From contig CADDZE010000040.1 in assembly GCA_902812465.1 (NCBI GenBank), positions 1 to 33,876 on the forward strand: DNA of 33,876 nt. The letters run 5' to 3'. The translations under genes and the position numbers were made by a program. Under the pieces are notes generated by a model that was given only the letters and a program-made list of their open reading frames with translations, made no database searches and was not told where the DNA came from. Shown here in pieces: positions 20,223 through 27,980 of this stretch. Position 1 is the first letter of the stretch, and every line of letters begins with the position of its first letter. The stretch comes from Acidobacteriota bacterium (lineage in GTDB: Bacteria; Acidobacteriota; Terriglobia; UBA7540).

Positions 20223-21269
20223 TCAAGACGAGCTTTTGCTGTTACGGCGCGCCAGAACTCTGGCATAGACCTGGCAAATCCTGGCAGCCGCTTGGGCCGA
20301 GGAGAAACGCTGGCTCACCCTTTCCCTTCCCAGCGTCCGCGTTCCTCGGCGGCAAACCTCGACCATCTTCTCCGCCATCGCCGCGGCATCGCGCGGCACA
20401 ATAAAACAGCCCTCCGTCATGCCCACGGCCTCGCGAACGTCGCCCACGTCCACCGAGACGACCGGCAGACCGACGGCCATGGCCTCCTTCACGATGTTCG
20501 GCGACCCTTCGGAGTGCGAGGCAAGCACCAGCAGGTCCGCCGCGTTCAAGTAGAGAGGCATCTCGCGGTGCGGCACGCGGTTGACTTGCAGCACTTCAAT
20601 GTTAGGCACGGCTTGGCGCGCACGGGCAACCGCTTCCTCGATCAGATCGTAGCGCTTGTTGGCAATTTGGGGATCGTAGGGGAAGAGCACTAGCTTCTTT
20701 CGGGGATCAAGGTGGAGGTGACTACGCGCCTCGGACTGCGGGAGGGGGCGAAACAGGTCCAAGTCAACCCCATTAGGAATCACCTCGGCTTGATCGAGGG
20801 CCAGCTTGGCTTGCATGGCCACACTCTTGACGATAACCGCGGCCGCCAGGCGCGACAGGACGAAGCTCGAAGCCTGGAACAGGCGGCCCACCAGGGTGAC
20901 GCGCCCCCGGCGGTCGCGGCGTCCGAGCACATCATCCCCCATGAAGGAAACTACCAGCGGCACGCGGCACTGGCATCGGGCCACCCAGCCGGACAAGCCA
21001 AAGTGGGCGTGCACCAGGTCGTACCTTTGTCGGCGGACGCACCGCCTGACTTCGCTGACGGCGCGCACGTAGTTCCAAAGCGACCGCCGCCCGTCGACGA
21101 AGAGGACCTCGTACTCAACGCCATGAGTTCGCAGCGACTCCATCTGGGCCTGGACCATGGCGCCGTACGCGGGGTTCTGCTCGGTTGGCCAAAGGTTGGT
21201 GACCACCAGCACGCGGCAGGCGGGGCGCGAGCGCGACTCATCCCCAGCTGCGCAGGTGGCAGCAGCCAT
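20223..21269 (-). CDS. GT4-family glycosyltransferase
   Basis: 348 residues of GT-B fold. The N-terminal domain carries VLVVTNLWPTEQNPAYGAMV and VHAHFGLSGWVA. The C-terminal nucleotide-sugar domain has VIPNGVDLDLFRP, KLVLFPYDPQIANKRYDL and the E-x7-E motif (EGSPNIVKEAMAVGLPVVSVDVGDVRE), typical of retaining GT4 enzymes. It would transfer a sugar from an activated donor to a polysaccharide, lipid or protein acceptor in the cytoplasm; donor and acceptor are unknown. Start ATG 21269 directly follows a TAA stop of a small upstream frame. The toroid gene follows. The two may be part of a small surface-glycan cassette that lacks polymerase and flippase genes here. Confidence 0.9.
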   Translation of the reverse strand: MAAATCAAGDESRSRPACRVLVVTNLWPTEQNPAYGAMVQAQMESLRTHGVEYEVLFVDGRRSLWNYVRAVSEVRRCVRRQRYDLVHAHFGLSGWVARCQCRVPLVVSFMGDDVLGRRDRRGRVTLVGRLFQASSFVLSRLAAAVIVKSVAMQAKLALDQAEVIPNGVDLDLFRPLPQSEARSHLHLDPRKKLVLFPYDPQIANKRYDLIEEAVARARQAVPNIEVLQVNRVPHREMPLYLNAADLLVLASHSEGSPNIVKEAMAVGLPVVSVDVGDVREAVGMTEGCFIVPRDAAAMAEKMVEVCRRGTRTLGRERVSQRFSSAQAAARICQVYARVLARRNSKSSS

Positions 21270-21589: not shown

Positions 21590-21618
21590 TTGACAAGGCC
21601 GAGCCTTCAGGATATGAG
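21590..21618 (+). promoter_or_regulatory. Sigma70-type promoter of the histidine operon
   Basis: TTGACA at 21590-21595 is a perfect -35. After a 17-base spacer, TATGAG at 21613-21618 matches four of six -10 positions. Transcription would start near 21625. It lies 196 bases before hisI and just ahead of the attenuator-like structures. Confidence 0.6.
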
Positions 21619-21629
21619 TAGATGTGTCC

Positions 21630-21707
21630 ATGCGAGGCTCGCTAATATATCGCCATCGGCGCCTAAGCCATCAGGCGCAGTGTCAGCGGGCCCCGTTGGC
21701 AAGCTGA
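21630..21707 (+). CDS. Candidate his leader peptide, 25 residues
   Basis: The frame ATG 21630 to TGA 21705-21707 encodes 25 residues, including IYRHRRLSHQ with two His (codons at 21654 and 21669). The start lies about 5 bases after the predicted transcription start, so translation would be near-leaderless; there is no ribosome binding site. It ends between the two arms of the antiterminator-like stem, as a regulatory leader would. Classical his leaders have many more His codons, so this is tentative. An alternative 7-residue frame starts at 21622. Confidence 0.3.
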   Translation: MRGSLIYRHRRLSHQAQCQRAPLAS

Positions 21708-21772
21708 TTCAGAGATCAGTCAAAGCAGCCGGGCCCGCTGATAAAGACAGATCGGCGGGCCTTTGTTATTTT
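21659..21772 (+). promoter_or_regulatory. Attenuator-like RNA leader of the histidine operon
   Basis: Three stems can form. First, a small hairpin pairs 21659-21664 with 21673-21678 (GCGCCT/AGGCGC). Second, an antiterminator-like stem pairs 21681-21693 with 21731-21743 (13 pairs, one G-U). Third, a terminator stem pairs 21731-21742 with 21751-21762. Stems two and three share 21731-21742 and exclude each other. The logic resembles amino-acid operon attenuation. No T-box consensus was seen. Whether a ribosome, a protein or a small molecule controls the switch is not visible. Confidence 0.65.
21731..21772 (+). terminator. Intrinsic terminator upstream of hisI (attenuator terminator)
   Basis: GGGCCCGCTGAT (21731-21742) pairs with ATCGGCGGGCCT (21751-21762) around an 8-base loop, giving 12 pairs including two G-U. 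It is followed by TTTGTTATTTT. This is the classic intrinsic terminator form, placed 19 bases before the hisI start codon. Confidence 0.75.
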
Positions 21773-21790
21773 GGGACCGGAAGAAAGCGG

Positions 21791-22168
21791 ATGATCATGC
21801 TCAAAGAATCGTTGGTTCCAGCTATTGTTCAAGATTTCGCCAGCGGGGAGATACTTATGCTGGGTTATATGAACCAGGAGGCGCTGGACCATACCCTTGG
21901 CTCCGGCCAGGTTACCTTCTTCAGCCGGAGCCGCCAGCGTCTGTGGACGAAGGGGGAGACTTCCGGCCACCGGCTGCGGGTCCGCGAAGTGCGGGTGGAC
22001 TGCGACGGTGACGCGCTGCTGGTCCGCGCACAACTAGAAGGCCCGGGCTGCTGCCATCTGGGCTATCGTTCGTGTTTCTTCCGCCGGCTGACGCCAGCCG
22101 GCGAAGAGGTGGTGGCGGAACGCGAGTTCGATCCTGAGAGGGTGTACCCGGATTCGGAGCGCGCATGA
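21791..22168 (+). CDS. hisI: Phosphoribosyl-AMP cyclohydrolase
   Basis: 125 residues; step three of histidine synthesis, opening the purine ring of PR-AMP. The metal-binding motif DCDGD and the Cys motif [15 protein letters not shown] are intact, as are [18 protein letters not shown]. Length matches the stand-alone cyclohydrolase; there is no fused HisE pyrophosphatase domain. I chose ATG 21791, with a second ATG at 21797; the open frame continues upstream through the terminator but that part is leader RNA, not protein. It is the first gene of the operon and its stop overlaps the hisG start by 4 bases (ATGA). Confidence 0.93.
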
Positions 22169-27122: not shown

Positions 27123-27980
27123 TTGCTCGCTAAACGCATTATCCCCTGCCTCGACTGCCGCGACGGACGTGTAGTGAAAGGCGTTCGGTTCGTGGAACTG
27201 CGCGACGCCGGCGATCCGGGTGAGCTGGCAGAGGCGTACAACCGCGAGGGCGCCGACGAACTGGTGATGCTCGACATCTCGGCCTCGCGCGAGGGCCGTG
27301 CCACGCTTCTGGATACGGTTCAGCGCGTCGCCCGCCGCCTGTTCATTCCACTAACCGTAGGCGGCGGCCTGCGGACTATCGATGATGCGGAGCGGTTACT
27401 CGGTGTGGGGGCGGACAAGGTGGCGGTCAATACGGCTGCAGTGGAGAAGCCGGAGCTCGTCCGAGAACTCGCCGCGCGGTTTGGCAGCCAGGCGGTTGTC
27501 GTAGCCATCGATGCAAGGCGGGCTTCGCCCCTCGAAGCTCCAAACTGGAACCTTGGAAGCTTCGAGTCTACACCCCCCCTCCCTTCCTCGCGTGGGAGGG
27601 CGGAGGGAGTGACGGCAAAGGTGAAGCAGCCGTCCTGGGAAGTGGTGACGTATGGAGGCACCCGCCGGACGGGACTGGATGCGGTCGATTGGGCTCGCCG
27701 CGTCGAGTCGCTGGGAGCGGGCGAAATTTTGCTGACCTCGATGGATGCGGATGGCACGCAGCAGGGCTTTGATTGCGAACTGACAAGGGCGGTCTCGACC
27801 GCCGTGCGGATTCCGGTGATTGCCTCGGGAGGGGCGGGCACGCCTGAGCACTTTGCCCAGGTGTTCCTCGAGGGCGCAGCGGACGCCGCCTTGGCTGCCT
27901 CCGTGTTTCATTTCGATCAGTATTCGATTCGCCGCTTGAAGGAGTTTCTGCGTCGACGCGGGATTTCTGTCAGACTTTAG
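27123..27980 (+). CDS. hisF: Imidazole glycerol phosphate synthase, cyclase subunit, with in-frame insertion
   Basis: 285 residues against about 253 usual. The (beta/alpha)8 barrel is otherwise standard: [17 protein letters not shown] with Asp11, VGGGLRT, catalytic Asp130 in [23 protein letters not shown] and [11 protein letters not shown]. The extra residues, about 134-168, separate AIDARR from SWEVVTYGG, where homologs have a loop of only a few residues. That loop is at the top of the barrel, near the HisH interface and ammonia path. Its DNA is palindromic (separate entry). The frame is maintained and both catalytic Asp are present, so activity is likely kept. TTG start with GGAG 8 bases upstream. 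Confidence 0.93.
27518..27600 (+). repeat. Palindromic insertion inside hisF
   Basis: Three hairpins stand in a row within the extra codons: a short GGGC-TTC-GCCC type at 27520-27530; 27531-27543 with 27553-27566 (13 pairs, one bulge); and CCCTCCC 27577-27583 with GGGAGGG 27594-27600. The block stays in frame without stops and encodes Pro/Ser/Glu-rich residues. It resembles coding palindromic elements known from Rickettsia, but I cannot claim relatedness. Confidence 0.6.

Follow-up and report, generated by a model that had tools for sequence, protein, structure and literature searches.

Attenuation of histidine biosynthesis genes through a leader peptide has been documented in Proteobacteria and in some Firmicutes (PMC9413887, PMC2965389), and the His leader peptides of Firmicutes carry 3–5 consecutive His codons (PMC9413887, PMC2965389). 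According to a 2010 survey, hardly any of the attenuators predicted in Acidobacteria had been given a function (PMC2965389). Our literature search returned no report of His leader attenuation in this phylum, although older comparative work may have touched on it. Here we examine the region upstream of the his operon in a 33,876-nucleotide stretch of Acidobacteriota DNA (hereafter the window), where an earlier note had proposed a his attenuator. We consider it highly probable that the element is a ribosome-mediated transcription attenuator of this operon.

The leader upstream of hisI

The operon hisI-G-D-C-B-H-F-A begins with hisI (21791-22168, plus strand), and an intrinsic terminator on the same strand, consisting of segment 4 (21751-21762) and a U-rich tail that together span 21751-21772, stands 5' of this first biosynthetic gene. 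Segment 3 (21731-21743, plus strand, GGGCCCGCTGATA) supplies the 5' arm of the terminator and also the 3' arm of an antiterminator with segment 2 (21681-21693, plus strand, TGTCAGCGGGCCC). The 2:3 stem joins 21681-21693 to 21731-21743 in 13 pairs, one of them G-U, with a duplex energy of -28.7 kcal/mol, while the 3:4 stem joins 21731-21742 to 21751-21762 in 12 pairs around a loop of 8, followed by the tail TTGTTATTTT, with a duplex energy of -24.8 kcal/mol. Segment 2 is in turn the 3' arm of a stem with segment 1 (approximately 21637-21644, plus strand, GGCUCGCU = GGCTCGCT), which was located by folding, with the 1:2 stem counted on alignments; the two segments pair in the minimum free energy fold of the window leader. 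The earlier note had described the alternative pairings of the shared segment, the perfect TTGACA upstream and the nearness of hisI (its ATG at 21791 is 18 nt past 21772), and all of these hold. Its coordinates for the 12-bp stem stand as well, and those for the 13-bp stem need one change, as the 3' arm ends at 21743 and not at 21742. Segment 1 and the leader ORF described below were overlooked.

The region 21622-21775 folds with a z-score of -4.87, and 0 of 200 shuffled sequences were equally stable. The arrangement, defined as one segment with two alternative stems of at least 11 bp, one of which ends in a U-tail, was absent from all 300 dinucleotide shuffles; a scan of both strands of the 33.9-kb window returned the leader site as the sole case.

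The promoter (21590-21618, plus strand) combines a perfect -35 box, TTGACA at 21590-21595, with a 17-nt spacer and a -10 box, TATGAG at 21613-21618, that scores 4/6; transcription is predicted to start at ~21625. A homologous promoter was found in 62 other leaders. We rejected the weak -10 box as a sign of faulty prediction, given that the -10 boxes of the relatives are better and in register. The leader ORF (21630-21707, plus strand) encodes MRGSLIYRHRRLSHQAQCQRAPLAS in 25 codons, from the ATG at 21630 to the stop TGA at 21705-21707, and is a homologue of the His-run leader peptide of the relatives. A frameshift was also rejected, since the ORF is colinear with those of the relatives through codon 18, where the conserved Cys-Gln of segment 2 lies (codons 18-19).

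The best -10 box ends 6–14 nt before the leader start codon in all 63 leaders with enough upstream DNA, a spacing with a mean of 10.1 and a standard deviation of 1.9 (4.1 in shuffled controls), and Shine-Dalgarno-like 4-mers are present in 2 of 64 leaders. Transcription generally begins some 7 nt downstream of a -10 box. Together with the observed spacing, this gives an untranslated leader of ~0–8 nt, so that translation of the leader ORF is probably leaderless or nearly so, judging from promoter position alone.

Around the leader, the upstream gene encodes a glycosyltransferase (20223-21269, minus strand) and is oriented away from it. The gap between attenuator and hisI, 18 nt in the window, exceeds 100 nt in five other loci (L003, L007, L025, L028, L029). 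Further downstream, HisF (27123-27980) has an insertion of ~40 residues near residues 135-177 compared with the family profile, and hisA comes after hisF.

Conservation across the class and related leaders

Relatives were gathered through hisI, and the regions upstream of it were compared. A homologous leader was present in all 28 relatives with upstream DNA (27 from the window's family, one from its order), and nearly all of them show a clear His run (for example, MLCALAHHHYHFSFGVTCQWAPA). Their leader ORFs have 19–25 codons, and the run lies at about codons 7–12 in nearly all, as in MLRALAHHHHHHHFSFGVTCQWANA (L023). The stop codon is 7 nt past segment 2 in most relatives and 13 nt past it in the window, measured alike. 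Across 63 leaders, with the window excluded, His codons account for 25.9% of the leader frame versus 3.9% and 2.2% of the other frames; this 26% compares with 2 of 25 codons in the window copy.

In an alignment of 29 sequences, 96.6% of cells are paired in the 2:3 stem, 93.8% in the 3:4 stem and 84% in the 1:2 stem, where 9 of 16 pairs show double changes. Shifting one arm by 1–3 columns cuts stem pairing to 29–48% in these 29 sequences. Within the family, the 2:3 stem varies too little for strong covariation, and its 2 double-change pairs were matched by 148 of 500 shuffles. A wider set of 64 sequences from the class was aligned with a model that lacks 2:3 and so is not fitted to it; there the stem has 25 double-change cells versus 9.2 in shuffled data, a count reached by 0 of 500 shuffles. 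Covariation of 1:2 and 3:4 was stronger than that of 2:3 on the 64 sequences, but this alignment had been fitted to both stems. The predicted, mutually exclusive stems 1:2, 2:3 and 3:4 are supported by covariation in these alignments. The earlier note had staked its reading on conservation and covariation of both of its stems, and both were seen in the relatives; its call of a transcription attenuator of the his operon is likewise borne out, with the His-codon leader, the stems and the terminator all conserved there.

At E<=0.001, the covariance model matched 204 of 399 genomes of the class. Of 40 class-level loci, 35 have hisI directly downstream, and the other five were set aside as not being his leaders (L142, L144 and L160 are aromatic; L146 and L166 are apparently chance matches). 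In a sample of the phylum at E<=1e-5, matches came from 12 genomes of the class and 2 outside it; the latter two are leaders of the aromatic kind, one preceding a DAHP-synthase-like gene and the other a trpE-like gene. The sequence GATCCTGGCTCAGAATC, which we take to be the acidobacterial primer site Acid31F, occurs in 7 of the 14 class genomes, one of them from the window's family, and the one context that was read is clearly 16S; going by this site, the host class probably belongs to Acidobacteriota. The assembly of the window's own genome contains no 16S gene. A contig scan with HisI returned only distant phyla, which were left out of the comparison. A second attenuator of the same model in the window's own genome was considered and rejected, the match being weak (L197, E 0.0075); it lies upstream of a threonine-synthase-like ORF, and no leader peptide was recognised there.

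Leaders of similar form were observed before other genes. In the window's own genome, an intact aromatic leader, VSHHAPNAYWFSLWYYFARSG, stands before aroF; the aromatic leader ORF at L219, upstream of the DAHP synthase (G000:C64:923-1942), ends in AYWFSLWYYFARSG and a stop codon and is followed by a terminator, a predicted intact Phe/Trp/Tyr attenuator. Aromatic-rich leaders with terminators, such as MFSTYANAFWYFSYRFWGFAPNR and MYSSLTHGRFFYYFSFWRRCQRAPA, also precede DAHP-synthase-like genes at L186/L142, L188/L144, L192, L193, L196, L160 and L214, the last of which is outside the class. In another class of the phylum, a MMIAATFNRYYWWYR leader and a terminator precede a trpE-like gene for anthranilate synthase component I (L218, G422:C121:107-247). 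Seven further loci (L189, L190, L194, L195, L200, L202, L203) have MCCC leader ORFs (ATG TGT TGT TGT) with terminators, and the genes after them include a sulfate adenylyltransferase, a nitrite/sulfite-reductase-like gene and a TauE/SafE permease.

Proposed switching and the histidine run of the window copy

In these leaders, the control codons reach into segment 1 or adjoin it and the stop codon is near segment 2, such that the position of the ribosome sets the fold. The sequence itself shows the leader ORF, the stems, the promoter and the terminator to be conserved, the folding switch comes from computation, and we infer stalling, termination and histidine dependence. RNA polymerase would start at ~21625, and a ribosome would load at 21630, a few bases from the 5' end. 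When charged tRNA-His is scarce, the ribosome would stall at the control codons (codons 7–11 in relatives; CAT at 21654 in the window) and mask segment 1, leaving segment 2 to capture segment 3 as it emerges; the resulting antiterminator would allow hisIGDCBHFA to be transcribed. With ample histidine, a ribosome at the stop codon at 21705 would mask segment 2, and the 3:4 terminator would form. Termination would be expected without translation too, 1:2 plus 3:4 being the most stable fold.

We simulated ribosome masks with an assumed footprint of 15 nt on each side. With the ribosome at the middle His codon, nascent RNA formed the antiterminator in 28 of 29 sequences; with the ribosome at the stop codon, it did so in 0 of 29, and the full-length folds had the terminator in 29 of 29. 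In the nascent window RNA, segment 2 can pair with segment 3 ahead of the synthesis of segment 4 when a ribosome sits at CAT codon 9 (21654), but not when it sits at the stop. In untranslated RNA, 2:3 is already present in the nascent folds of 11 of 29 sequences, one of them the window. In equilibrium folds of the full-length window RNA, the terminator is favoured in most of these states and persists when a ribosome occupies CAT codon 9. Antitermination therefore depends on 2:3 forming ahead of the terminator, as it does in other attenuators.

The window copy differs from its relatives in the peptide. Its His codons, at 21654-21656 and 21669-21671 on the plus strand, are the only 2 in the 25-codon ORF, a count shared with L003 and tied for the lowest of 64 leaders (median 6), and codons 7–11 read Tyr-Arg-His-Arg-Arg (YRHRR) where the relatives have the His run. 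With one or two useful His codons left, the sensor is eroded, and the response to histidine is probably weakened. In a tree of HisI and HisG, the window branches early within its family, L003 falls elsewhere and the outgroups have 6–8 His codons, so the loss looks both derived and repeated. Many members of the class have a fixed Arg in HRHHHH, which is consistent with tolerance of CAY to CGY substitutions because segment 1 stays paired.

How far this erosion has gone admits several readings. The window copy, and it alone, could be a decayed attenuator that no longer senses histidine and acts as a fixed partial terminator, a reading compatible with attenuation in the rest of the family. YRHRR in place of the His run would fit such decay, as would the degraded runs of L003, L012 and L031 (2–3 His codons) on separate branches of the his-gene tree. 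However, decay should cost pairing too, and all stems are intact and at least as long as the family consensus; the frame is also open and colinear, with one CAT left at the control position. We regard complete decay as possible but doubtful. The genome seems to have kept attenuation in general, its aroF having an intact aromatic leader. Were the RNA switch instead kept whole and the histidine sensor lost, his transcription would be gated by an input other than histidyl-tRNA, either arginine codons or general translation speed; we think this unlikely, and if true it would be a natural case of an attenuator whose input has changed or been lost. The specific proposal that the leader now answers to a different amino acid, with arginine the likeliest, draws on the three Arg codons found where the control codons lie (CGC CAT CGG CGC, codons 8–11) and on HRRHR in L003 and RHHRIH in L012. 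Yet one transition turns CAY into CGY and preserves segment 1 pairing, the fixed HRHHHH occurs in many class members, and arginine control of his genes would be without metabolic reason, which makes this proposal quite improbable.

Two further readings would deny the element a ribosome as its sensor. Mutually exclusive stems do not by themselves name the sensor, and a T-box, metabolite riboswitch or protein-binding leader could in principle use them; but no relevant Rfam family was matched at gathering thresholds or at E<=10, and relatives have a His-rich peptide at the same place, leaving such a sensor very remote. Intergenic terminators are common, and this one could belong to the upstream gene with its second pairing due to chance. 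That gene points away, though, a promoter and leader ORF stand before the terminator in the relatives, and the triple arrangement was absent from the 300 shuffles; we give this explanation practically no weight. Ribosome-mediated attenuation of the his operon, probably with a weakened histidine response in the window, is the reading we carry forward.

Comparison with known attenuators

The data point to a His attenuator, backed by covariation, that spans an entire class probably belonging to Acidobacteriota, accompanied by similar candidate attenuators before aromatic and cysteine/sulfur genes. From the conserved promoter-to-start spacing, leaderless translation is predicted to be the usual way in which ribosomes enter these leader peptides, and the His runs, which vary from intact to eroded, form a natural series for asking what number of regulatory codons attenuation requires.

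The earlier note had called the layout unlike that of the enteric his leader and suggested an undescribed class. We found otherwise on the first point: the relatives show the classical layout, with a His-codon peptide, segments 1–4 and a stop near segment 2, and it had seemed odd because the window copy has lost most of its His codons, which hid the peptide. The enteric leader (RF00514) shares with this one the His-codon peptide, the alternative antiterminator and terminator stems and the place upstream of the his operon. In contrast to the enteric case, the first gene here is hisI, the His run of the window is eroded, and the leader ORF begins ~0–8 nt from the predicted 5' end without a Shine-Dalgarno sequence. 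There is also no covariance-model match: our Rfam search returned neither the enteric His_leader RF00514 nor a T-box at gathering thresholds or at E<=10, in line with the earlier note's view that this is not a T-box.

The Firmicutes His leader-peptide attenuators (PMC9413887), including those of hisS/hisZ in bacilli (PMC2965389), are likewise non-enteric, lineage-specific and unmatched by RF00514, but they belong to another phylum and are likened here by these features. The leaderless polycysteine sORF attenuators of mycobacteria (Canestrari et al. 2020), as they are cited in PMC9031893, share the probable leaderless ORF read by a ribosome; they differ in amino acid and phylum, and the leaderless start proposed here follows from promoter position. 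The MCCC leaders before sulfur genes in the relatives are candidate cysteine attenuators similar to these leaderless mycobacterial ones. Set beside these systems, an undescribed class is mostly the wrong description, as the mechanism is classical ribosome-mediated attenuation, and what may be new is its lineage together with the probable near-leaderless start.
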